Shown here: positions 9,469 through 28,310 of the stretch, piece by piece
How the letters are laid out: each line of letters starts with the position of its first letter
How positions within the stretch are numbered: the first letter of the stretch is position 1
Origin: Candidatus Methanophagales archaeon
GTDB taxonomy: Archaea > Halobacteriota > Syntropharchaeia > Alkanophagales > Methanospirareceae
Length of the DNA: 35,219 nt
Direction: 5' to 3'
Assembly: GCA_028572065.1 (NCBI GenBank)
Contig: JAPVWK010000006.1
Location: 1-35,219 of the forward strand
Notes under the pieces: generated by a model
The model's input: only the letters and a program-made list of their open reading frames with translations
The model's database searches: none
What the model was told of the DNA's origin: nothing
Position numbers and translations under genes: made by a program

Positions 9469-11193
9469 TCATCGTACCCCCTCACTTGACGATAAATCTA
9501 TATTTTTTATCATATAGTTAACAAAATCTCTTGTCTTGGCAATTCTTCCAAATGTCCATTCTGTTTTATCTGCAAATTCAATAGCCAGTTCAAAGGTTTC
9601 GTGCCATGATTCAGTTAATATATCCTTTGAAAAATCATCCTCCGATAATGAAGTTACATCTGTAGCCTCATATTCCTTTTTGCCAAGCAATTTAATTGTT
9701 GAAAGCATTGCAAGATGAAATTTAAGATCTTTTATTTCTTGCGCTATATACTCCGTTGATTCATTGCGTAAAAAATTGTCAATTCTTTTCATTGTTTTTG
9801 CACAAAACAAATAAATGGCAGGATTTGTAGATTCACTGAAAACACGGTCATAGTCTGAATCTCTTTTTATTAAAGAAGATGGCCTAGCTCGTGCATTGTC
9901 AGGTTCACGTAAAATTATCGCCATAACAGTTTGTGCTAAATAGGGGATACCTATAATTCTATCAACGGGTTTCCCTATGTTTTTATAAAAATTCTTTCTG
10001 CGATCGTAGAACCAGTCATGTTGTAGAAAGTAATCTTCAATATTACGTTGAATTCGGTCGGTTGCCTTTAAGGATGCAATTGGAATTGCAGTTTGGAAAT
10101 TTGTTGCCTTAATAATACGATCTCGGGTTTCAGCATCATCTGTAACAATAATTCTTATTAAAATTGACCTTTCATCATTTTCCTCTACATTTTTTTCTTT
10201 AAAATAGTTATAGATAATGGTTGTTGTTTGTAATCCATTGACGACTTGTACATCGTCTAGAGTAATTGTTTTACCCGCAATACTTGCTTTTGAAGCTAAA
10301 ATGGTTATGCCGTTATTAAGCCACCAGAAATCCAATTCGTCGTCTGATCTAAGCGTTTGCCGAACATCTTTATTGACTTCAATGTCGCCCTGATAATCGC
10401 GAACATTTGACTCAAATATATATCGGCGCAAGTCACCACTTTCATCACTAACGAATTTGAAGTAATCTTCGAGGCTGGATAATACAACGTAGTTATTATC
10501 GCCTCTTGAAATATAGTTTTCAAGAAACCGAAGTTGTAAGGTGTAACTTTTTTCAAGGCGTGAAGCATCAAGCAATTCACGTGCTCCAACAAATTTAACC
10601 TCAACCATGGATCCGTGGAAATAGCGTTCAATCGTTTCTTTTAGAGTTTTTGCCCTGTTGCGAACATTGGGATGGATAGTTGAAGTATCTCCTTTACTAA
10701 CATAAACATAGTAGATTTTTAGTTCTGGATGGCGCGCTGCCAAACCGAGATATGCAGTGCGAAAAGCATCTGCCTTATTAATAATATCTGTATTATAGAC
10801 CGTCCGAAAGTCAGGCAGATCATTTTTTAGATTGAAGATGTCTGCCACTGTAGCATTAACACGGTCAACTACACTCTCCGAAAAGGTAGGCGAACGTTTA
10901 GCTTGAATTAAGAAAATCTCTAATACCGGATTCTTCTTAATTGCCTCTATGACTGTATCTTCGTTGAAAAGTTCATTGTTAATAAAAGTAAAAAATCCGT
11001 CGATTCCACCATCACCACTACCTCCGACTTTGCCAGAAAACAACTCATCATACGAGAGCTCATAATTTTTTAAAAGTTGTTCAAAAGTGAATACTTCAAA
11101 ATAATCACTATCTGACAGAGTGTCCGCGGTCTGTGTCTTTTTTTGTTTAAGTATACTATCCAAAATTATAATATCATTATCATTAGAACTCAT
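9469..11193 (-). CDS. AIPR (abortive infection phage resistance) family protein
   Basis: FWWLNNGITILA...VQVVNGLQTTTIIYNYF is the AIPR signature. The N-terminal half has SGDGGIDGFF...IFLIQAKRS, like a restriction-endonuclease fold. Confidence 0.85.
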   Translation of the reverse strand: MSSNDNDIIILDSILKQKKTQTADTLSDSDYFEVFTFEQLLKNYELSYDELFSGKVGGSGDGGIDGFFTFINNELFNEDTVIEAIKKNPVLEIFLIQAKRSPTFSESVVDRVNATVADIFNLKNDLPDFRTVYNTDIINKADAFRTAYLGLAARHPELKIYYVYVSKGDTSTIHPNVRNRAKTLKETIERYFHGSMVEVKFVGARELLDASRLEKSYTLQLRFLENYISRGDNNYVVLSSLEDYFKFVSDESGDLRRYIFESNVRDYQGDIEVNKDVRQTLRSDDELDFWWLNNGITILASKASIAGKTITLDDVQVVNGLQTTTIIYNYFKEKNVEENDERSILIRIIVTDDAETRDRIIKATNFQTAIPIASLKATDRIQRNIEDYFLQHDWFYDRRKNFYKNIGKPVDRIIGIPYLAQTVMAIILREPDNARARPSSLIKRDSDYDRVFSESTNPAIYLFCAKTMKRIDNFLRNESTEYIAQEIKDLKFHLAMLSTIKLLGKKEYEATDVTSLSEDDFSKDILTESWHETFELAIEFADKTEWTFGRIAKTRDFVNYMIKNIDLSSSEGVR

Positions 11194-15818: not shown

Positions 15819-15906
15819 TATCGGTTCTCCTATCCTAAAAGATTGATAGCTATAGATAAGTAATTTTCGTTTGATCCGTAACTCAGCCTAATTACGTATA
15901 GGCTGC

Positions 15907-16624
15907 GCGGCGAAAACAAGAATAAAGCGCGGGGAGCGCGTGCATGTGTATGAGCGGGAGAACTACAGGGATAGTTCAGGCAAAGTAAAACATCGCAATA
16001 CCCGCTATTTAGGTATATATAGAAATGACAATAAACAACGAAAAGCAGATAATTCCACCAAAAAAAAAAACGATTCAAAGAGTTTGAGGTTACAAAATCG
16101 GTGAAATACGGTGACATAGCAGTCCTTTACGATTTGTTCAAGCAATACGGACTTATCGAGTTATTAAACGGATTTATTCCAAGGTGAGAACTGCCCGCGT
16201 GGGCGAAGTTTTTGCCGCGCTTGCAATCAACCATATAATTGACAGAGAAACGCTCAACAAGTTTCCCAAATGGTATCAGGACACAGAATTGGAAGAACTC
16301 ACCTGCATCACCTCCAAGAAATTAAACGCCAGTAATCTTGGTGCGGTAATGAAGACATGCGGTAAAAAAGGCTCTGAGGGTATCGTTGACGTGTGCATTG
16401 AACTGTTCAACAAAATAAAGCATCTTGAGACAGAAACGTCTACACTGATCTATGACCTCACCTCCGCGTATTTTGGTAACGATGTGATTGAAAAGATATT
16501 CGATTGCTTCAAAAACTGTCTTGATTTTGGCGGAGAAAAGCAAGATAAAATTTCTGTGCTCACTAAAGAGCAAAAGGAGATTATTGAAAAGTTGGGTTTT
16601 GCAGATGCACTTTTCGGGTCGTAG
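15907..16624 (+). pseudogene. Degraded IS1634-like transposase, three frames
   Basis: Frame 1: VHVYERENYRDSSGKVKHRNTRYLGIYRND. Frame 3 after an A11 tract: FKEFEVTKSVKYGDIAVLYDLFKQYGLIELLNGFIPR*. Frame 2 (16184-16624): RTARVGEVFAALAINHIIDRETLNKFPKWYQDTELEEL...LIYDLTSAYFG. C-terminal half missing. Confidence 0.75.
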
Positions 16625-16669: not shown

Positions 16670-17284
16670 TTACGTAAACTTGCCCTGCTCAATTTCCCGT
16701 AGGCACGACTTCACTTTACTCACGATTTCGTTTAATTTCTCCTGTGAAACACTTTCACTTCTCACAATCTCGGATACGATACCAACAACTTTTCCAGGGG
16801 TCGCGCCTTCTTTATTCCTCGTGCTCACCCCGACTGCCTCGAAATCCTCAAATGATACAGGACTTTGGCAAAGAACAATTGCCGGTATCTTTACCCGTTT
16901 CAACACAAATCGTAATTTATAGATGAAATGTGCTTTTACATTACCGTGATGTTCTAAGAGAAGTTTATGTCGTCCGATTAGATCTATTTCCCTATGCTCT
17001 AATCCAAAGGTTGCAGCATGCCCACCACTTGATGGTGCATCTCTCGGTGTGCCACCACCGGCATTTAAAATTAATACACCCGTATTCACACCCTTTTCCC
17101 TTAACTCTATGGTTATCTCACATACCGGCTTTGGCACATGCCGGGGTCCAGGAGTCATGGCAACCGCGATTACATCGTTATGCCAGGCTTTCGCAAACGT
17201 CCCTCGTTGCGCGATGCCACCACCTAGCCCAAGTGCTTGCCCTTTTCTACATGCTACCAACTGTGTATCTCTACCAACTGACAT
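16670..17284 (-). CDS. mcrC: Methyl-coenzyme M reductase operon protein C
   Basis: GRDTQLVACRKGQALGLGGGIAQRGTFA...VIAVAMTPGPRHVPKPVCEITIELREKGVNTGVLILNAGGGTPRDAP...IYKLRFVLKRVKIPAIVLCQSPVSFEDFEAVGV. McrC pattern. Confidence 0.9.
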   Translation of the reverse strand: MSVGRDTQLVACRKGQALGLGGGIAQRGTFAKAWHNDVIAVAMTPGPRHVPKPVCEITIELREKGVNTGVLILNAGGGTPRDAPSSGGHAATFGLEHREIDLIGRHKLLLEHHGNVKAHFIYKLRFVLKRVKIPAIVLCQSPVSFEDFEAVGVSTRNKEGATPGKVVGIVSEIVRSESVSQEKLNEIVSKVKSCLREIEQGKFT

Positions 17285-17310: not shown

Positions 17311-18921
17311 TTAAGCCGCTTTCAAATCCTCTATCTTCGTTATTTTGCCATTCTCCATGTGCGCTATTCTATCACAGACCAGATTAACAAAGTCCATGTC
17401 GTGGGAGACGATCAAGAATGTAATGCCCAAATTCGCCCTTGCCGCCCGTATGGAATCCGCAACAAAGTTCTTTGTTACCGGGTCCATTGTCCCCGTTGGC
17501 TCATCAAGTATAGCGATTGCCGGTTCCTTCATCAGTATTTGTGCGAGTACTATCCTTTGCCGTTCTCCAACGCTTAGTTGTGTATGGTCTTTGGATAGTA
17601 TCTCCTCGGATTCTTCATCGCTAAATCCAATCCCTTCTAATATGAACTTCACCTTCATTCTCGCAAGTTCTTCGGGCGCCTGCACGCCTATACAACTTGT
17701 GAGGTTCTCTAATACCGACCTATCGGGATAGAGAGAATATTCCTGGTGTAACATAGACACGTGTGTTGCCGTTTGCTCCCCGCTTCCAGGTGTAGTCGCA
17801 CTCCATGAGATCCACACTCCGGTCTCCGCTACCCGCCCTACATCTATCCACTTCTCGCCGGACCTTATCATGACAGTGCCACCAGTTACCGGATCTATAT
17901 GCGATATAATCCTGGCCAGGCTCGTTTTGCCCGAACCGCTTTTGCCTAATAGCCCAAATATCTCATTCTCATTTATTGTTAGCGTAACATCATCCACCGC
18001 CTTTACCATCCCACGCCATACCGAATAATAATATTTCTTGCAATGCTCTATTTTTATCTTCGGTTCCCCGATTTTCTTATACTCTTCGCGCTCTTTTTGC
18101 CCGACCTGCTTCTCAAATTCTGCTAGGACCTCTTTTGAATTACCGTATTTCACTATTTCACCGTGTTCAAGCCATAACGTCTTTTTTGTTAGTGCATCAA
18201 TCACGTAAGGCCAGTGAGAAGTAACAACCATAGTCATTCCTTCTTTTGTACTATCAATAAGCGCTTTGTGCACGAGCTTTGCCGTCTCAAAGTCTAACGT
18301 GCCCGTGGGCTCATCTGCTAACAGTAGCATAGGATCTAAAGCAAGTTGTCGCGCGAGTACTACCCGTTGTTTCTCGCCACCACTAAGATCGCTCGCGGGA
18401 AAGGTGACCCGATGAACCATTTTCACTGCTTTCAGCAAGTCATAAGCACGTCTGAATCTTTTATCCGCGGGATATTTCCTATTCTCCAAAGCCTGTATTA
18501 CGTTATACATGACTGAATCGTCACCGTATAGCCCAAAAGTACGCTGCAACATGATGGCTACACTTCGCCTCACTATACGCCTTGTTTCATTGTCTGCCCA
18601 GTAATTTAGCTCCTTCAAGTCCAATGTTGTTCCGCACTTGATACACACCTCTCCTGCTTTACTCGGTACGCCCACCCACTCGCAGGAAGGGCACATTGCC
18701 ACTCTGAAGATAATTTCACCAGAAGTAGGTTTGTATTCCTCGGTCCCTCTTAGCATGTGAAGCAAAACAGATTTACCAGCACCGCTTCTCCCGAGCAGCC
18801 CTATAGGCTCCCCTTCATATATATCCACGCTCACGTTCTTCAGGACTTCTTTGCCGTCGAATTCTTTACATATATCTCGTATTCTTACGAATGGCTCTTT
18901 TTTAACCATTTTTACTCTCAC
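17311..18921 (-). CDS. atwA: MCR activation component A2, twin-ABC ATPase (paralog 2)
   Basis: Two ABC domains (GRSGAGKS / [16 protein letters not shown] / LSVGERQR) with the A2-type Cys-containing insert [22 protein letters not shown]. True start may be 18909. Confidence 0.9.
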
Positions 18922-18946: not shown

Positions 18947-20548
18947 TTAGAGATCCCTAAAATCTTCTATCTCCACTACTTTACCCTGCTCCATCTTCGC
19001 TACTCGATCACATACCTTCTCTGCAAAGTCGAGGTCATGCGTAACAATCACGAATGTTATGCCCAAATTCTCACGTGCTTTTATTATCGTCTCTCCCACG
19101 TATCTCTTTGTTACCGGGTCCATTGTACCCGTGGGCTCATCAAGCACTGCAATATTAGGCTCTTTCATCAGTAATTGCGCAATCAATACCCGCTGTTTCT
19201 CACCTACGCTCAGTTCATCATGCGTCTTTGGTAGAACCTCTGCTATTTCTTCATCGCTGAAGCCCACACCTTCAAGCACGAACTTCACCTTCATCTTTGC
19301 CAGATCATCGGGCATGCTCAAACCTATGCCGGTCGTAAGGTTCGCCCAGATAGTAAGTTTCGGGAATAACGAATATTCCTGATGTAAAACACCAACAAAA
19401 TGCGATCTCCACTCGGTCATACCGCCCACAATTACCCCGTTTTCTATGAATGTCCCCGCATCCTTCTTTGAAGCTTCATACCAACTCTCTCCGACTCGCA
19501 CCCAGGCGTTACCACCTGTTCCTGAATCCAAATGGCATACAATCCGCATTAAACTCGTCTTCCCCGCACCACTATGCCCTACAACACCGAATATCTCATT
19601 CTCATTTACTTCAAGCGTAACATCATCCACCGCCTTTACCACGCCTCGCGATGCCGAGAAGTAATACTTCTTCAGATGTTCCATTCGGATTATAGGATCG
19701 CCGAATTTTTTAAACTCCTCGCGCTGTATTTCTCCTACTTCCTTCTCAAATGCGGTCACCACATCATCCGTATTGCCATATTCTACTATCTCGCCCTTAT
19801 CAAACCATACCGTTTCCTCTGTCAACTCGCGAATTACATAAGGCCAATGAGAAGTGACGAGAAAAGTCGTCCCACCTCTTGTTGTCTCTATCAGTGCGCG
19901 GTGCACCACCTTTGCCGTCTCGTGGTCTAACGTACCCGTGGGCTCATCAGCCAAAAGTAAAATAGGTGCCAGCGCTAACTGTCTTGCAAGCACCATTCTC
20001 TGCTTCTCACCACCACTGAGGTCTCTCGTATCCGGCATGTTTACACGATGCAACATCTTTACGGATTCTAGTATTTCATATACCTTCTTCAGCCTCTTAC
20101 TCTTTGGATACCTTGTCCGTTCCAGTGCCTCTAATATATTCCAGATGACGCTTTCGTCACTATACAATGCGAAACTGCGTTGTAGCATGATAGCAATCGC
20201 ACTCTTTAGCGTTCGCCTCATCTCCTTATCCTGCCAGAAATTTACTTCCTTAAACTCGAATTCCGTAGCACATTTAGGACATTTATCCCCTACCCTGCTC
20301 GGGCCCTCTATCCAGGTACAGCCGGGGCAATACGCCAATCTGAATATTATGTCACCGCTATCCGGTGCGTATTCGTCAGTACCGCGAAGCATACGCAGTA
20401 ATACCGATTTCCCAGCGCCACTCTTTCCGAGCAGCCCTAACGGCTCCATCTCTTTTATATTCAGATTCACGTTCTTCAACACGGTTTTGTCTTCGAACTT
20501 CTTGTTCACATTCCGGACTTCTATAAACGTCTCTTTCTCTTCGCCCAT
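18947..20548 (-). CDS. atwA: MCR activation component A2, twin-ABC ATPase (paralog 1)
   Basis: Same architecture: GKSGAGKS / [16 protein letters not shown] / LSVGEKQR, CPGCTWIEGPSRVGDKCPKCATEF insert. Confidence 0.9.
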   Translation of the reverse strand: MGEEKETFIEVRNVNKKFEDKTVLKNVNLNIKEMEPLGLLGKSGAGKSVLLRMLRGTDEYAPDSGDIIFRLAYCPGCTWIEGPSRVGDKCPKCATEFEFKEVNFWQDKEMRRTLKSAIAIMLQRSFALYSDESVIWNILEALERTRYPKSKRLKKVYEILESVKMLHRVNMPDTRDLSGGEKQRMVLARQLALAPILLLADEPTGTLDHETAKVVHRALIETTRGGTTFLVTSHWPYVIRELTEETVWFDKGEIVEYGNTDDVVTAFEKEVGEIQREEFKKFGDPIIRMEHLKKYYFSASRGVVKAVDDVTLEVNENEIFGVVGHSGAGKTSLMRIVCHLDSGTGGNAWVRVGESWYEASKKDAGTFIENGVIVGGMTEWRSHFVGVLHQEYSLFPKLTIWANLTTGIGLSMPDDLAKMKVKFVLEGVGFSDEEIAEVLPKTHDELSVGEKQRVLIAQLLMKEPNIAVLDEPTGTMDPVTKRYVGETIIKARENLGITFVIVTHDLDFAEKVCDRVAKMEQGKVVEIEDFRDL

Positions 20549-20688: not shown

Positions 20689-21057
20689 TCACCGCCTCTT
20701 CTTTAGCACCACTATATCGGGTCGCGGAGAAGCTTTCGAGCCTGCGAACTCGCGCTTGCAACGTTCGCACAGCTCCCTCGCGGTAAGTGTAACGACTTCT
20801 TCTGACCCCGGTAACTTCCGTGCATAGATGAATTCCGGCTCCACACCCACGGATTTACTTAATTCGCTCAGTATCGCATTTATCTTCGCTTTAAACACAT
20901 CAACATCATCGCTTTGCAGTCCTCTCAGATCAGCGGCATAGCCAACACAGCCACATGCCATCCCGAATACCTTCACCTCCGGCACGAATATGTTCCCTAC
21001 TAAATTCCGCAGTTCGCCCTCAAGTTTTCTCCTACTAGCACCTAGTTCTTCTTTCAC
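20689..21057 (-). CDS. Small Cys-containing protein of unknown function
   Basis: 122 aa with ACGCVGYAADLRG and LCERCKREF. ATG overlaps the stop of the upstream U32 gene by 4 nt. Confidence 0.7.
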   Translation of the reverse strand: MKEELGASRRKLEGELRNLVGNIFVPEVKVFGMACGCVGYAADLRGLQSDDVDVFKAKINAILSELSKSVGVEPEFIYARKLPGSEEVVTLTARELCERCKREFAGSKASPRPDIVVLKKRR

Positions 21058-22079
21058 TTTTTTATCACCTTCAATACCTTACTTGTTAGTTCATCACAAT
21101 ACCGGCAGTCATCACATATCTTTTTGCAGTTCTTCCATTGATCAATGCACCCATCCAGGAGCCCATTATCCAGATAAAAGGTATATCTAAGTTCTGAAGG
21201 GCAATCAAGTACTTCAAGCAGGTTGCCTTTGAGTTCCCTACGATGATATACTTCCATGCAATTTAAAATCCATCTAACCGCATTCGCTCTGCCCGAGATC
21301 TTGAATTCATCAATGCCTATTGCCTCATAAGCCTTCAAGTCTTCCGGCCTTATCCACGGCGACCGGATAATTTGCGCGGGGTCTCGAACACGGATGGATA
21401 TGCACTTATCAAAATAGTAATCACCAAAGGTATTTGGGGGTTGCACCTGAGCATTCTGGGAAGAAGCAGCACGAGACGATGTTATATGCGAGAAGAGGTT
21501 GAAATGCGCATGCCTGAAAGGGCACTTATACAGACAGCCTTCGTTCACGAGTACCCGAATGTCGCAATGGACCGCTTTCTTTATCGCTTTTAAAATCCCG
21601 AAGTCACGGTTTATGTTCGTGTCCACGGCGATTGCATCAGCCCCAAGCGCTTCAAAGAATTCAGCACGCTGTGGCGAATCCACATGTGCCACGCATGATA
21701 CGACAGTCTCCATCGAGTGTTCTCTTAAAAGCTCGACAAAATACGGCTCCGCCACCGTAACGCCATCAACGCCGGCTTTATTCAGCTCATTGAAATACCA
21801 GTCGAACGTCTTAAAACCATGCAAGGTCAGGTGATAGCCACCTAAGCATGAAGGGTTCATTACGATATTCAGCTTTACGTTGTGCTGATGTGCATAAGCT
21901 GTTTGTTCCTTTATCTCATCAACAAGCGCGGCATGTAGCGTTGCTCTTCCGCTACCCATAACATCCGGCGAGCCGGCCATATAAACCTCCGCTACATCTT
22001 TTAAACCCTCGGATTCTTTATACGCCAGTATCTCCTTCAAAGCAGGAAAATGCCCGGGATGCGGTATTATTAATCTCAT
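21054..22079 (-). CDS. U32-family protein (paralog A)
   Basis: IIPHPGHFPALKEI...EVYMAGSPDVMGSGR...NEGCLYKCPFRHAHFN; C-terminal Cys cluster CKKICDDCRYC. Confidence 0.8.
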   Translation of the reverse strand: MRLIIPHPGHFPALKEILAYKESEGLKDVAEVYMAGSPDVMGSGRATLHAALVDEIKEQTAYAHQHNVKLNIVMNPSCLGGYHLTLHGFKTFDWYFNELNKAGVDGVTVAEPYFVELLREHSMETVVSCVAHVDSPQRAEFFEALGADAIAVDTNINRDFGILKAIKKAVHCDIRVLVNEGCLYKCPFRHAHFNLFSHITSSRAASSQNAQVQPPNTFGDYYFDKCISIRVRDPAQIIRSPWIRPEDLKAYEAIGIDEFKISGRANAVRWILNCMEVYHRRELKGNLLEVLDCPSELRYTFYLDNGLLDGCIDQWKNCKKICDDCRYCDELTSKVLKVIKK

Positions 22080-23077
22080 TTGATAATTGTTAAGGCCTCC
22101 TTCGTCAGTTCATTACAATAACCACATTCGCCACAGACCTTTCGACACTTCTTCCAGTGCTCTATTGCGCCATCAAACTTGTCATTATCCATATAAAACA
22201 TATCCCTGAGTAGTTGTGGGCAGTCCAGAAGTTCAAGCAGGTTGCCTTTGAACGACCGGTGAGAATAAGATCGCATGCAATCTATAATCCAGTTCACCGC
22301 TTTTGTCCGCCCTGATAGCTTGAATGTATTTATTCCGATTGCTTCGTATTCTTTTAGGTCTTCCGGCCTTATCCAACCTGACTTGGTTATCTGTGTTGGA
22401 TCTCTCAAGCGGATATTTATGCACTTGTCGTAATAGAAGTCAGGAGCGAAAAGCGGAAAACGGGGTTGATTTAAACTGCTGAGATGCGAAGCGAGATTAT
22501 AATGCGAGTATCTGAACGGACACCTGTACAGACATCCCTCGTTCACGATTAACTTAACTTCGCAATTAACCGCCTTTACTATCGCTTTTAAAACATCAAA
22601 ATGCCGGTTTATGTTCGTATCTACGGTTAGCACATCCGCGCCGAGCTCTTCAAAGAATTTGGCTCGCTGTGGCGATTCGACATAAGATAAAACAGATACG
22701 ATAGTCTTCATCGGGAATTCGCGTAGGAGTTCCACAAGGTATGGCTCTGCCACTATAACACCGTCAACATCTGCTTTGTTCAGTTCGTTAAAATACCACT
22801 TGAACATCTTATAACCCTCAAATGTCAGGTGATGTGCCCCGGTACATGTGGAATTCATCACGATGTGCATTTTTATACCGTGTTGATGTGCATATTCTGT
22901 CTGTGCCTTTATTTCGTCTATTAGTGGCGCATGCAGCACACCTCTTCCGCTGCCCATCACTTCCGGAGACCCCCCCATAAAAACTTCTCCCACTTCGTTC
23001 AAGCCTTCTGCTTCTTTTACTTCTATTATCTCCTTCAGAGCGGGAAAATGTCCGGGATGCGGAATCATCAATTGCAT
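22076..23077 (-). CDS. U32-family protein (paralog B)
   Basis: MQLMIPHPGHFPALKEI...NEGCLYRCPFRYSHYN; C-terminal CRKVCGECGYC. Start moved to internal Met by alignment with paralog A; 4-nt overlap with paralog A. Confidence 0.8.
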   Translation of the reverse strand: MQLMIPHPGHFPALKEIIEVKEAEGLNEVGEVFMGGSPEVMGSGRGVLHAPLIDEIKAQTEYAHQHGIKMHIVMNSTCTGAHHLTFEGYKMFKWYFNELNKADVDGVIVAEPYLVELLREFPMKTIVSVLSYVESPQRAKFFEELGADVLTVDTNINRHFDVLKAIVKAVNCEVKLIVNEGCLYRCPFRYSHYNLASHLSSLNQPRFPLFAPDFYYDKCINIRLRDPTQITKSGWIRPEDLKEYEAIGINTFKLSGRTKAVNWIIDCMRSYSHRSFKGNLLELLDCPQLLRDMFYMDNDKFDGAIEHWKKCRKVCGECGYCNELTKEALTIIK

Positions 23078-23174: not shown

Positions 23175-24149
23175 CTATGCACCCAGTTTCATTAGTGGAT
23201 GTGGTTCCAGTGCATCAATGTCGTGTTCTGCCTTGTTCGCCTCTGAAACAATCATATCCGTCATACCAACCAGTGGGAACGCTAACGAGGCATTCTCTAT
23301 TGGCCCGTAAAGCACGAAATCCTGACCCGCCACGACTGGTATAACGTTTGATGCTACGTCACATATCTTGAACACATCTGCGCCGAGTCCTTCCCAGCCA
23401 CCCGGTCCTTTCGTCGCATGCTCCTTCCGGAATTTTTTCAGCCAGGTCCACGCGGAAGGTGCATTGTGGATACCTAATCCTACGGGTATCCCGAATTTCG
23501 ATTTGACGGCAAAACCAGCCGCGACTGCTGAGCCCGCTCCGGCACCTATGGGCAGCGTGGCATTATCACACAATGGTTTCGTTATTCCCAGGTCCCGCGA
23601 CAGAGCCACCAAGCCTTTATCTATGGTGCCTGCTCCGGTCTCTAACAGATCTATCTTCCCTGCAACCGACGAATCCTTTGGGTTGAACGCCAATACAATT
23701 GACGCTTCGATGGGGGAATTCTTGATCGCTTCGATCTCTTCATCTGTACACGAGATGTTTATTGAGTTATACACCGCTCGCCCTGTCAGCCCAACTTCAT
23801 CTACATACTTGAGTCCTGCAACTTTTGTCTCTGCGACCGTAGAGTCAATCAAGAAAGGAACGTCACATACGTCTGTACAGAACGCAATCTCTTTCTCCAT
23901 CGCCTCGGGTGTCTCCGAAAATATCTGCATTATGCACGGATTACCGGTTAAATCCGAGAATTCCGATTGCTTATTCAAGACCTCTTCCGCGGCTTTCTTG
24001 TCAAATATCCCTTTGTCCTCATCCTCAACCAGATAATGCTTTGCATAGAATATCGTGCCACAAAGAACAGTTGCGCACTCGCCCGGCTGTCCTCCTATCT
24101 TCAATCCACCAATTTCATATATATCCTGTTCTCTATCAAATAAAAACAT
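23175..24149 (-). CDS. mtrH: Tetrahydromethanopterin S-methyltransferase subunit H
   Basis: FLFDREQDIYEIGGLKIGGQPGECATVLCGTIFYAKH...LIDSTVAETKVAGLKYVDEVGL. Confidence 0.96.
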   Translation of the reverse strand: MFLFDREQDIYEIGGLKIGGQPGECATVLCGTIFYAKHYLVEDEDKGIFDKKAAEEVLNKQSEFSDLTGNPCIMQIFSETPEAMEKEIAFCTDVCDVPFLIDSTVAETKVAGLKYVDEVGLTGRAVYNSINISCTDEEIEAIKNSPIEASIVLAFNPKDSSVAGKIDLLETGAGTIDKGLVALSRDLGITKPLCDNATLPIGAGAGSAVAAGFAVKSKFGIPVGLGIHNAPSAWTWLKKFRKEHATKGPGGWEGLGADVFKICDVASNVIPVVAGQDFVLYGPIENASLAFPLVGMTDMIVSEANKAEHDIDALEPHPLMKLGA

Positions 24150-24168
24150 AGTCCTTGTCCTCCTATTA

Positions 24169-24462
24169 TTATCCCATTAGGAATAGTACATACGTAACTA
24201 TTCCTATCATCACACCGTATAAAAGCCCGATTGTAAAGCCTAATCGTTCTCCCTGTCGTTGCCACAGTTCCCCGGCGACAAATTCCACGGTCTGGTCCAT
24301 CGTATTTATTCGGTCCAGCAGTTTTGTGTGCTCGGGTGGCGTTACTGATACTGGAACCGCAACCTCTTCCAGTTCATGTTCCAGTTTCGCCATAATATCG
24401 GCTTCGACTTCGGCTTCTATCTCCTGTTCAAGCTTCTCTTCTGTCTTTTTCTCTTCTCCCAT
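24169..24462 (-). CDS. mtrG: Tetrahydromethanopterin S-methyltransferase subunit G
   Basis: LLDRINTMDQTVEFVAGELWQRQGERLGFTIGLLYG, C-terminal TM helix; operon position. Confidence 0.88.
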   Translation of the reverse strand: MGEEKKTEEKLEQEIEAEVEADIMAKLEHELEEVAVPVSVTPPEHTKLLDRINTMDQTVEFVAGELWQRQGERLGFTIGLLYGVMIGIVTYVLFLMG

Positions 24463-24485
24463 TCTTCTTTTCTCCTTTTCTGTCC

Positions 24486-24683
24486 CTACAACACAAGTTT
24501 AAGCCCGACTAAAAAGAAACTCGTGAAGAGCCCGATTGCCAGTCCTTTTATCAATCCTGCCCAGAGCCCTGCTGCGAACCGAGAATCTCGGCCGATTATA
24601 GTTATAAAGTGTCTCAGGTCTTCTATACGTGCGGTTAAAACAGCCGTTTCCGGTGTTTGTTGTACTACTTTCGGTGCTGCCAT
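24486..24683 (-). CDS. mtrF: Tetrahydromethanopterin S-methyltransferase subunit F
   Basis: 65 aa, RIEDLRHFITIIGRDSRFAAGLWAG plus TM; operon position between mtrA and mtrG. Confidence 0.87.
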   Translation of the reverse strand: MAAPKVVQQTPETAVLTARIEDLRHFITIIGRDSRFAAGLWAGLIKGLAIGLFTSFFLVGLKLVL

Positions 24684-25415
24684 TTAGATCACCCCCATTA
24701 TTAACGGTAAAAGGAAGATGAGCGTGGCTAAGAACCCTACTAAGAGTCCAATTAACCCGTTCATCGAAAGCCCGGAAGTTAATTTCTGGTCTCGTGCAAT
24801 CAACTGTGTCTTATATGTTATCTGCTCTGTCGCACGGTCTATTGTAGCCATATGTGGAGATGCCGGCATTGCTAACGGCATTTCTATCTTGGCTGCTTCC
24901 TCGCCCTCGTCTCCTATTTTCACTACCATCGGATCTTCCGGATATGCCCCAGGATCCCTCGCTATGAGCTCCTGGACCTTTGCATTTATCTTGCCGTAGT
25001 CCTCTTCCCCGATCATGTCTATTACTTCGACCTGGTCTCTGAATCGGGCAACCGCTTCATCCGGTAAGTTCTCGATGAATGGAATTGCACCTGTGGATCC
25101 TACTACCTTGTGGCTCGACGGATCAACACCACCCTTCACCAGTGCAATCAATGTTCCACCACTTATATGCCCCGGTACTTCTGCACCTCCGGCTATGAGG
25201 AATCGTATGTTCGGATTTGAGACGACGTTCGTTATTATCTTCTCTAACCCGATGTTCTCTGTCTTGTCCGGTCCCTGGATCGCTACTCCTTTCAAATGTT
25301 CCATATGGAAATACGACCCATTTGATGATATAGCCACGCAACTCTGTGGGTCGCCCACCTCATAGTCACCGGTGACTAACGGCCATCCCTCTGGAACTTC
25401 TTTCTTGTCTGCCAT
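24684..25415 (-). CDS. mtrA: Tetrahydromethanopterin S-methyltransferase subunit A
   Basis: MADKKEVPEGWPLVTGDYEVGDPQSCVAISSNGS...FLIAGGAEVPGHISGGTL; C-terminal TM. Start moved from 25448 to internal Met. Confidence 0.95.
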   Translation of the reverse strand: MADKKEVPEGWPLVTGDYEVGDPQSCVAISSNGSYFHMEHLKGVAIQGPDKTENIGLEKIITNVVSNPNIRFLIAGGAEVPGHISGGTLIALVKGGVDPSSHKVVGSTGAIPFIENLPDEAVARFRDQVEVIDMIGEEDYGKINAKVQELIARDPGAYPEDPMVVKIGDEGEEAAKIEMPLAMPASPHMATIDRATEQITYKTQLIARDQKLTSGLSMNGLIGLLVGFLATLIFLLPLIMGVI

Positions 25416-25417
25416 TA

Positions 25418-25720
25418 TTATGCACCTCCGCCTAATACTAAGAACCACGCTGCAACCATTATTAGAGCAGTGGTCACCCCAATCATGAAGAACGTCATGA
25501 ACCCTGCTTTACTCATCATTCCGTCTCTGTTTGGCTGTGCCATGTTGAAAGTGGAGTAGGGATCAAGAGTTTTGAGCAAGTCGTTCACTGCCGCCTCCAG
25601 AACCGTTACCTGGTCTTCTATCGGTCCAAGAGTGACTTTATAGAATCCTGGTCTACTGGTACCTACGGTAAGCGTATCTGGATCAAGTACTATTCCATAT
25701 TTCTCATTTATTACTATCAT
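25418..25720 (-). CDS. mtrB: Tetrahydromethanopterin S-methyltransferase subunit B
   Basis: 100 aa with C-terminal TM, between mtrC and mtrA; MtrB-like GIVLDPDTLTV. Confidence 0.9.
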   Translation of the reverse strand: MIVINEKYGIVLDPDTLTVGTSRPGFYKVTLGPIEDQVTVLEAAVNDLLKTLDPYSTFNMAQPNRDGMMSKAGFMTFFMIGVTTALIMVAAWFLVLGGGA

Positions 25721-25737
25721 GTTTCCTTTTTTCCTCC

Positions 25738-26631
25738 TTACTCTATCGTTTTGATCATCCCTGTTCCGACTGTCTCGTACGCCTCATCCATGCACGCTTT
25801 GATGAACATCCTGAAGAAATATGCCCATACTGCCAATCCAAAGATCAATAGTGACACACCGTTCCAGAGTTTCCAGGGAGATGAGATCGTTACTGACGCA
25901 ATGCTCCCAAGTTCCCAAGAAAAGCTACTGAGTATAATCATCACAAAACCCAGTAAGGCACATAACAACCCTACAATCTCTACTGAACACATCCTCGTTC
26001 GTTCTCTGTTCTCATCAGGTCCGAGACATGCGTTATACGGATGGAGCAGCCCGAAACACGTGAAGATGAACATCAACGCAATTAGGCCGGTATTTAATAC
26101 CTGGTTTACCACGGCATTGAAGTTCAGCGAGCCAGTCACGATAGAACATTCAAGCAAGATAATGAGTGTCCCAGCCATACCTAATTCCATCATCGCACGT
26201 TCTAACTTCGGTATTTTCATCGCTATTACCTTCTCATGGTTCGATAGTATGCCAGCCACAAGACCGATAACGCCCATCAGGATGACGCCTACTAACACTG
26301 CCGGATATGCCACACCTTCAATGCTGCCATACTTTGCGAGTGCTAATCCGACCAACGCACCTACTACCCCAAAACCGGTAGCCAGCACGCCTATGGATGG
26401 AACGCCAGTCCCTAACCCATATTTAGACGTCTTTCGTACTGAGTCCATACCCCAGAGGAACGCTAAAATTAACGCTATCCCTTTTATCACCGCGGGTAAT
26501 CCCGTAAATACTACTACTATCGCAGCCACGATACCGGCTATAAGCCCCATCTCGGTCTCGTCAAGCGGTAATTTAAACGATAGTCCTTTTTTTGTCGGTT
26601 CTTCTTCCACTACTGCTGGTGTTACTGTCAT
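25738..26631 (-). CDS. mtrC: Tetrahydromethanopterin S-methyltransferase subunit C
   Basis: Multi-TM protein, HPYNACLGPDENRERTRMCSVE motif; operon position. Confidence 0.93.
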   Translation of the reverse strand: MTVTPAVVEEEPTKKGLSFKLPLDETEMGLIAGIVAAIVVVFTGLPAVIKGIALILAFLWGMDSVRKTSKYGLGTGVPSIGVLATGFGVVGALVGLALAKYGSIEGVAYPAVLVGVILMGVIGLVAGILSNHEKVIAMKIPKLERAMMELGMAGTLIILLECSIVTGSLNFNAVVNQVLNTGLIALMFIFTCFGLLHPYNACLGPDENRERTRMCSVEIVGLLCALLGFVMIILSSFSWELGSIASVTISSPWKLWNGVSLLIFGLAVWAYFFRMFIKACMDEAYETVGTGMIKTIE

Positions 26632-26632
26632 T

Positions 26633-27328
26633 TTACATCGTCCCTCCTACGGTTAAATAGCTTGCAATTACGACCATTATTCCACATAGCAGCGAAATAA
26701 CTAGAGATGTGACCATAGCAAATGGAAGTCGCTTGAACTTCGGATCATGGAATCCCTCGATTGTACCCCGTATGTTGTACGCTGCAATGATCGCATTCGG
26801 CACGAATATTGCTAAAGCCCCAATCGCGGCTGTTCCTGCTGAGAAGTCCGCGTAGTTCAGTAACGCGAAGTACATCAGCGCACCACCGAATCCACCTACG
26901 AAACCACCTAACATACCGGAGACATAGACACAATTTGGTACTCCATGTCCATCGGTTTGAGGTGTTTTGTACGGTGCCTGTGGTTCCTTAGTCAAAGGGT
27001 CCACATCTACTCTACCCGATACAGGCACAATCCCACAGCCAAAGGTGTAAAGGATATTCGCCATCAGCATTACTACACACATCATCACTGTCGCACCGAT
27101 TGCACCTGACAAAGCCACGAGCAGGAGACTGTCTGTGAACGTAGCCGCTGATGCCGCTGTGAATAAACCGGTCATTGCCGCACCGAGCATTATCTGCACT
27201 GTTCCCGTTGCTATGCCTGTTGCGGTGCCCATTGCTGCTGGTGCACCGCCCACTGGTAATAGATGAGCACCTAAACTTGCCAGTAACCCACCTGCTACTA
27301 CACATAAGATAATCAATATTGGTTCCAT
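26633..27328 (-). CDS. mtrD: Tetrahydromethanopterin S-methyltransferase subunit D
   Basis: Multi-TM, HLLPVGGAPAAMGTATGIATGT ... DGHGVPNCVYVSGMLGG. Confidence 0.94.
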   Translation of the reverse strand: MEPILIILCVVAGGLLASLGAHLLPVGGAPAAMGTATGIATGTVQIMLGAAMTGLFTAASAATFTDSLLLVALSGAIGATVMMCVVMLMANILYTFGCGIVPVSGRVDVDPLTKEPQAPYKTPQTDGHGVPNCVYVSGMLGGFVGGFGGALMYFALLNYADFSAGTAAIGALAIFVPNAIIAAYNIRGTIEGFHDPKFKRLPFAMVTSLVISLLCGIMVVIASYLTVGGTM

Positions 27329-27332
27329 ATTT

Positions 27333-28310
27333 TTACACTCCTACAAATGGTCCACATTTCTTTCTTACCCATCTCACAAACACATAGTTCACCACTGCTA
27401 ACGCTATTACAATGATGAGTCCCATCACGATAGCCCATGTCACTGCACTATTCCCGGCTGATGCGGCTAGATTTGGTAAATAGCCTCCAAGTTGCATACC
27501 AACCAAACTTCGCCAGTTCTCAAACAGGATGATGAGCCCGAAGGTCATCCCCGTAATAGGTCCACCGAATTTCGCACAGAACCCTGCTATGTCCCTTTGT
27601 GTCCGTACCCCGCAACCCGCGTATCGCGTTATCTTTCCGTGGTAAACTACACGCTTACCCTCACCAAACGGTCTGTCTTGAAACTCTCGCTCTGCTCCAT
27701 AATGGACATCACCAGTAGACGACCCAATTGCGCCCACAGTAATACCCCATATGAAACCGAGTAGTGGCAAGGCGAACGGATGGTTCAAAGCTGGATTCCC
27801 TGACAGAGTCCCTAAATTGCACTGTATGTATGCTATGCAGGTGATAAAGAACGTTGTCATAAAGGCATGCGTTGCTATAGGTAACAGATGCCCGTATAAC
27901 ACGTCAAGATAGATAGGTTGCTCGAAACGCTTCTGTGCCGCAGTTCTGCCGCAATGCGAAGACATCGAAAAGATGATATTAATCGCTGCCGCTACTGCTA
28001 CACCAATGGGAATTGCCAATACTGCCGCCTTCCATTCCTCACCTGGTACTAAAGGCTCCAGTTTTAGCAAAAGCAACCATGCTATCGTACCTGCTGTTGC
28101 ACAATACATTGCATTAGATAGTGGCTCACCGGAAATCGCTTTGTTAAAGAACCGATTCACTTGTCCAATTTGTGCTGCAAGTTGCACCTGCGAATTCGGA
28201 TTGCTCTGCGATCCTATATCTGATTCTAAGTCCTCAAACGTACATGCTAAGAACGCTAAGAACGCTATCACTAACATCCATGCAAATAGCAATACTACTA
28301 TTAGTCCCAT
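27333..28310 (-). CDS. mtrE: Tetrahydromethanopterin S-methyltransferase subunit E
   Basis: Multi-TM, SDIGSQSNPNSQVQLAAQIGQVNRFFNKAISGEP; first gene of mtrEDCBAFGH. Confidence 0.95.
   Translation of the reverse strand: MGLIVVLLFAWMLVIAFLAFLACTFEDLESDIGSQSNPNSQVQLAAQIGQVNRFFNKAISGEPLSNAMYCATAGTIAWLLLLKLEPLVPGEEWKAAVLAIPIGVAVAAAINIIFSMSSHCGRTAAQKRFEQPIYLDVLYGHLLPIATHAFMTTFFITCIAYIQCNLGTLSGNPALNHPFALPLLGFIWGITVGAIGSSTGDVHYGAEREFQDRPFGEGKRVVYHGKITRYAGCGVRTQRDIAGFCAKFGGPITGMTFGLIILFENWRSLVGMQLGGYLPNLAASAGNSAVTWAIVMGLIIVIALAVVNYVFVRWVRKKCGPFVGV

Follow-up and report, generated by a model that had tools for sequence, protein, structure and literature searches.

Two bodies of work bear on the genes described here, one on the modified residues of methyl-coenzyme M reductase (MCR) and the other on the oxygen-independent hydroxylases of the U32 family. 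Reports of hydroxytryptophan in MCR date from 2012, 2017 and 2025. The organisms are strict anaerobes, and we know of no oxygen source for the modification. The enzyme of ANME-1 carries 7-hydroxytryptophan at alpha333 and that of M. formicicus 6-hydroxytryptophan at alpha429 (PMC9118554), 6-hydroxytryptophan is also present in the MCRs of ANME-2c and ANME-2d (PMC12413448), and no enzyme has been assigned to the modification (PMC7581889). U32 proteins bind a [4Fe-4S] cluster and hydroxylate aromatic rings without O2, with RlhA and TrhP needing prephenate (PMC6747719, PMC6599085); the reference cysteine motif of the Fe-S U32 hydroxylases is CX6CX15CX3/4C (PMC6747719).

Here we describe two U32 genes and a gene for a DUF5402 protein, lying together in a window of 35,219 nucleotides that is the entire contig (C6) of a 2.16-Mb ANME-1 genome, 83% complete, and we follow their relatives through other archaeal genomes. 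The coupled unit of one U32 protein and DUF5402 is the best candidate that we found for an O2-free enzyme of MCR tryptophan hydroxylation.

Organisation of the locus

The three genes form a triad of minus-strand ORFs (Table 1) in which U32a overlaps U32b, and U32b the DUF5402 gene, by 4 nt each (ATGA and GTGA), and the triad lies between mtrH and two component A2 homologues that are followed by McrC. An earlier note on this DNA had described this layout, together with the paralogy of the two U32-type genes, their EGCLY(K/R)CPFR and C-terminal CX3CX2CX2C motifs (CRKVCGECGYC, CKKICDDCRYC) and a small cysteine-containing protein of 122 aa. The ORFs and the TIGR03269 and TIGR03264 matches bear out the layout, both U32 proteins score above the PF01136 cut-off and are 61-62% identical to each other, both sequences contain the two motifs, the first as NEGCLY(K/R)CPFR, and the small protein can now be identified as a DUF5402 member with four invariant cysteines. 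The arrangement is more than a product of chance, since dozens of genomes share it and the adjacency of U32 and DUF5402 genes with a 4-nt overlap is found across lineages.

Further features of the window deserve mention. Methanogenesis markers 14, 17 and 7 are divergent from mtrE. The two A2 homologues stand in tandem beside McrC, where the ANME-1 loci L128 and L134 have one A2 match. Finally, positions 9469-11193 encode a 574-aa protein whose 36-bit match to MzaE, an anti-phage protein of the AIPR family, is weak and below the cut-off, and a 95-aa ORF at 15830-16117, between an nfo-like gene and McrC, has no Pfam or NCBIfam match.

Table 1. Features of the triad and its neighbours in the window.
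Feature	Position	Strand	Basis
U32a, first gene of the triad, U32 family (PF01136), 333 aa	22076..23077	-	ORF with ATG at 23077; Pfam match
U32a C182-X3-C186 motif (EGCLYRCPFR)	22520..22534	-	Sequence and alignment
U32b, U32-family protein, 341 aa	21054..22079	-	ORF; Pfam match
U32b C182-X3-C186 motif (EGCLYKCPFR)	21522..21536	-	Of 55 sequences, all have C182 and at least 90% have C186
U32b C-terminal CX3CX2CX2C (C318, C322, C325, C328), predicted second metal site	21096..21128	-	C322, C325 and C328 invariant; C318 at least 90%
DUF5402 (PF17393) protein, 122 aa, GTG start	20689..21057	-	ORF; Pfam match
DUF5402 CGC motif (C35, C37)	20947..20955	-	Both Cys invariant in 39 sequences
DUF5402 CxxC motif (C97, C100)	20758..20769	-	Both Cys invariant in 39 sequences
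mtrH, the final gene of the mtrEDCBAFGH cluster (23175-28310), immediately upstream of the three genes	23175..24149	-	Likeness to mtr clusters of other genomes
Component A2 homologue 1, an MCR activation ATPase, on the downstream side of the triad	18947..20548	-	TIGR03269, 633 bits
Component A2 homologue 2	17311..18921	-	TIGR03269, 668 bits
McrC (MCR operon protein C)	16670..17284	-	TIGR03264, 242 bits

Conserved cysteines and predicted folds

The two U32 proteins match PF01136 with scores of 38.8 and 40.3 bits, where the cut-off is 22.4; the E-values of the pair, given here in no matching order, are 2.9e-10 and 7.9e-10. U32b is predicted to fold as a TIM barrel (AlphaFold model, pLDDT 90.4), and the closest fold to this model in the PDB is that of the U32 protein MK0906 (5d88, E 1e-13). 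Alignment of 55 sequences gave a conserved cysteine set made up of C78, C182-X3-C186 and C226 together with C318, C322, C325 and C328, and nine cysteines are conserved or nearly so in the U32 family. In the secondary structure of the model C78 comes after strand 3 and the C182/C186 pair after strand 7, a placement that we read as probably bringing them to the mouth of the barrel, where the cofactors of U32 proteins are expected. When the E. coli U32 proteins were searched with the family profile it scored 30 bits with RlhA, 20 with UbiU and 19 with TrhP, and left UbiV unmatched.

The family name U32, and the fact that the best fold match MK0906 was deposited as a peptidase, would fit a peptidase, or else a chaperone without catalytic activity that assists MCR/Mtr assembly. 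We consider this improbable, given that the nine conserved or nearly conserved U32 cysteines and the four invariant cysteines of DUF5402 point to redox or metal chemistry, that MK0906 lacks the C182/C186 pair and is therefore a poor functional proxy, and that the chemistry demonstrated for U32 members is Fe-S hydroxylation (PMC6747719).

The 122-aa protein matches PF17393/DUF5402 over its full length, scoring 132.6 bits where the cut-off is 25 (E 9.5e-39). Its predicted structure is compact and of the alpha/beta type (pLDDT 92), the CGC motif lying in the first hairpin and the CxxC motif at the start of a later helix, and a structure search with the model returned no solved fold at E <= 0.001. 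In the collection of papers searched, none mentions DUF5402 and none treats U32 with ANME and mcr, and DUF5402 was not found on the plasmids searched. Three loci of Syntrophoarchaeum and Alkanophagales (L045, L047 and L049) have DUF5402 tandemly doubled as one ORF, which suggests that the protein may act in a two-domain or dimeric form.

The conserved unit is one U32 protein with DUF5402

DUF5402 was found in 72 of 295 genomes sampled from the phylum, and a U32 protein of the same type (>400 bits) in essentially the same genomes, the exceptions being truncations in metagenome-assembled genomes (MAGs) and two weaker relatives (~268 bits, in G004 and G020) without DUF5402. The class of Ca. Methanoperedens gave the same picture: DUF5402 is present in 113 of 238 genomes and U32 in 114, all 113 DUF5402-positive genomes also carry U32, and the sole mismatch is a truncated U32 in G342. 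Among the matches listed by a genome-wide scan (80 loci), almost all have DUF5402 after U32, in most cases overlapping by 4 nt, and the organisms named at these loci, where a name was given, are all methane- or alkane-metabolising archaea.

One genome appears to have caught the two genes in the course of loss. Adjacent remnants of U32 (the first ~90 residues) and of DUF5402 (fragments) lie upstream of mtrE near 92200-92674 of contig C12 of G168 (L218), while in sister genomes of the same genus the genes are intact (G085, G090 and G202) or both missing (G012). Such joint decay would be expected of two components of a single system.

The earlier note had suggested that the U32-U32 pair is the functional unit, in the manner of UbiU-UbiV. 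Comparison does not support this view, as each locus of Methanosarcinaceae, ANME-2, Methanoliparum and Syntrophoarchaeum has one U32 gene, and outside ANME-1 the usual unit is one U32 with DUF5402. A maximum-likelihood tree groups the ANME-1 proteins U32a and U32b in one clade (100/97), placed within clade I beside Methanoliparum and one Methanoperedens copy, while clade II (100/100) comprises Methanosarcinaceae, ANME-2a-c, ANME-3 and the second Methanoperedens copy. Judged by this tree, the pair is an ANME-1 duplication, and with single U32 genes the rule elsewhere a two-U32 heterodimer can be ruled out as the general unit. Two U32-DUF5402 copies of different clades also occur in Ca. Methanoperedens nitroreducens (L082 and L084), one of them a few genes upstream of mcrBDGA and the other elsewhere.

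Restriction to MCR-bearing lineages and linkage to mcr and mtr genes

The DUF5402 unit occurs only in MCR-bearing, that is methane- or alkane-activating, lineages. Outside the ANME-1 family all 30 DUF5402-positive genomes of the phylum sample (295 genomes) carry mcrA, and none of the 116 mcrA-negative genomes carries DUF5402; we made these counts from two tables, and within the ANME-1 family, which they leave aside, the mcrA-less MAGs are incomplete. The earlier note had raised the prospect of a scatter through non-methane archaea with no link to MCR, and this result favours the link for the DUF5402-coupled family.

Two distant U32 relatives have all the conserved cysteines and stand without DUF5402 (L213, G020:C1:491598-492575; L214, G004:C1:115367-116275). 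One is in an mcrA-positive genome, near hydrogenase- and AOR-like genes; the other has formylmethanofuran dehydrogenase- and Cdh-like neighbours, and its genome gave no mcrA match. These gene names are our reading of the sequences. The two relatives show what appears to be a wider C1-archaeal branch of U32 that is not bound to MCR.

Gene order ties the unit to MCR in several ways. A genome that we call Methanoliparum-like for its two mcrA genes and its small size (G007) has the order mcrBDCGA-U32-DUF5402, Syntrophoarchaeum has mcrA-U32-DUF5402, and in Methanoperedens U32-DUF5402 lies a few genes upstream of mcrBDGA. The order is U32-DUF5402-mtrEDCBAFGH in Methanolobus, Methanococcoides and ANME-3, and mtrH-U32(-U32)-DUF5402-A2-McrC in ANME-1. 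A tRNA or rRNA hydroxylase like TrhP or RlhA, co-regulated with the methanogenesis genes, seems quite unlikely against this background: these characterised relatives do act on RNA (PMC6599085), and RlhA is the top scorer of the E. coli U32 proteins with the family profile, but an RNA target gives no reason for a restriction to MCR, the unit is missing from every mcrA-negative genome of the phylum sample once the ANME-1 family is set aside, and in the Methanoliparum mcr cluster it is placed directly downstream of mcrA.

The earlier note had also allowed for another target needed for MCR/Mtr function. Methanosarcinaceae and ANME-1 have the unit directly beside mtr, each in its own arrangement, as would suit a modification of the Mtr complex or of its cobamide (for example benzimidazole hydroxylation); we nevertheless rate this as very unlikely, since three other lineages have the unit linked to mcr and not to mtr, and the unit is absent from E. 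thermophilum (G314), in which mtrE is present. Moreover, U32-DUF5402 is kept in Syntrophoarchaeum (G082), Alkanophagales (G118 and G147) and G297, in which mtrE was not detected, and this disfavours Mtr as the sole target.

Correspondence with hydroxytryptophan in MCR structures

Organisms were tied to MCR structures by McrA identity. The McrA of the window genome, encoded on another contig, is ~97% identical to PDB 3SQG (by visual count, ~16 of 579 residues differ), which is the ANME-1 MCR from Black Sea mats with 7-hydroxy-Trp333. The McrA of G299 is ~97% identical to 9qm5 (ANME-2c) and U32-DUF5402 is present in that genome; the McrA of G298 is close to 9qqt/9qr1, and the unit is present in Methanoperedens (ANME-2d). 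Both genes are absent from G455, whose McrA is 100% identical to that of M. barkeri (1e6y), and from G314, whose McrA is 100% identical to that of the ethane oxidiser E. thermophilum (7b1s), and in both cases the MCR has no hydroxytryptophan. M. acetivorans likewise lacks DUF5402 and has an MCR without hydroxytryptophan. DUF5402 is present in M. jannaschii, which we take to be in the same family as M. formicicus and used as a proxy for it.

The modification and the unit thus agree in three positive and three negative lineages, a match with an exact probability of ~1 in 20 by chance, and also in one proxy; the lineages are not fully independent. This phyletic match is suggestive and is not proof. 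The comparison leaves aside M. marburgensis, M. wolfeii, M. kandleri, M. thermolithotrophicus, M. maripaludis and Methermicoccus, the McrA of the last (7nkg) having no near-identical match among the 83 genomes tried.

Conservation of the substrate was uninformative. The tryptophan equivalent to alpha333 is kept almost everywhere, including the alkyl-CoM reductases (ACRs) of Syntrophoarchaeum and Alkanophaga, and that equivalent to alpha429 is found in all canonical MCRs sampled and lost in these ACRs, so that only an alpha333-type site could be the target in Syntrophoarchaeum and Alkanophaga. Both tryptophans are also conserved in the MCRs of organisms that lack the unit, and McrA conservation therefore does not discriminate between organisms with and without it. 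In Methanoperedens two copies, of clades I and II, are frequent, whereas only 6-hydroxytryptophan is reported in its MCR, and the clade I copy may thus have a different target.

Proposed function and mechanism

Our preferred reading, to which we give a little less than an even chance, is that U32 and DUF5402, which are translationally coupled, together make up an Fe-S hydroxylase acting without O2 on an alpha-subunit tryptophan in methyl- and alkyl-CoM reductases; its Fe-S binding, chemistry, oxygen donor and target residue are what we infer from the evidence above. The enzyme would place a hydroxyl group on a tryptophan in the active-site region of the MCR alpha subunit during maturation, at alpha333 in 3SQG numbering (7-hydroxy, ANME-1) and/or at the equivalent of M. 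formicicus alpha429 (6-hydroxy, ANME-2). The U32 TIM barrel, holding a [4Fe-4S] cluster, would hydroxylate the aromatic indole ring as RlhA, TrhP and UbiU-UbiV hydroxylate theirs, with prephenate as the likely source of oxygen, and the C-terminal CX3CX2CX2C site and the four-cysteine DUF5402 protein would either provide electrons or hold McrA in place for the reaction. The duplicated U32 subunits of ANME-1 may pair or divide two targets between them.

A bolder version is possible but doubtful: U32-DUF5402 would be the first protein-directed O2-independent tryptophan hydroxylase, with clade I making 7-hydroxytryptophan (ANME-1) and clade II 6-hydroxytryptophan (ANME-2c, ANME-2d and, by prediction, ANME-3, Methanolobus and Methanococcoides), and would act on alkyl-CoM reductases too.

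The linkage of the unit to mcr, A2 and McrC would equally suit a change to MCR or its cofactor other than on tryptophan, such as methionine sulfoxide, another modified residue, an F430 variant, or an assembly or activation step with A2 and McrC, and we regard this as rather unlikely. Methionine sulfoxide can arise as a handling artefact, which weakens its case as a target. S-oxymethionine does occur in the ANME-1 MCR as well (PMC7581889), and ANME-1 has two U32 paralogues, but didehydroaspartate is found in M. barkeri and M. acetivorans (PMC8070964), both of which lack DUF5402. Methylthio-F430 is specific to ANME-1, and ANME-2 MCRs have canonical F430 (PMC12413448) although ANME-2 carry the unit; F430, a substrate suggested in the earlier note, is for this reason unlikely, and synthesis of methylthio-F430 by U32-DUF5402 is disfavoured. 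The broader proposal of that note, an anaerobic modification system linked to MCR, holds insofar as Fe-S modification is the best reading and hydroxylation of an MCR residue has phyletic support; the U32 pair as its unit finds no support.

U32-DUF5402 is thereby a specific two-gene candidate for the origin of MCR hydroxytryptophan, and it yields predictions for methanogens that are in culture and open to genetics. If the reading is right, O2-independent U32 hydroxylation would be extended from RNA and quinones to proteins, DUF5402 would gain a function, and parts would be at hand for making native-like ANME MCR in a host.

Comparison with known systems

By sequence (E 2.4e-18) as well as by fold, the best PDB match is MK0906 of Methanopyrus kandleri, which differs in a shorter chain (254 aa) and in an aligned part without the EGCxxxCP cysteines. 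With RlhA and TrhP the unit shares the U32 domain, the K-I-x-GR region and the expected hydroxylation of an aromatic ring; it differs from these RNA hydroxylases in its restriction to MCR-bearing lineages, its cysteine motif and the lack of RNA-related genes among the neighbours seen, and the profile matches are of 30 and 19 bits only.

UbiU-UbiV, the O2-independent ubiquinone hydroxylases of E. coli, belong to the same fold family and are single-domain proteins of similar length (292-331 aa, compared with 333-341 aa here), encoded like the ANME-1 pair by tandem genes, and cysteine ligands and O2-free action are expected of U32-DUF5402 also. They differ in being an obligate heterodimer of two U32 proteins with one [4Fe-4S] cluster each, where one U32 with DUF5402 is the rule, and in the weak profile match (20 bits to UbiU, none to UbiV). 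The cysteine spacing of the window proteins departs from CX6CX15CX3/4C and from its UbiU/UbiV variants, and these proteins have the additional C-terminal CX3CX2CX2C. The enzymes already known to modify MCR, YcaO/TfuA, Mmp10, MgmA and McmA, carry out thioamidation or methylation, and none hydroxylates or belongs to U32 (PMC7581889, PMC11796369); they resemble the proposed U32-DUF5402 hydroxylase in being dedicated enzymes for single MCR modifications with a patchy distribution.
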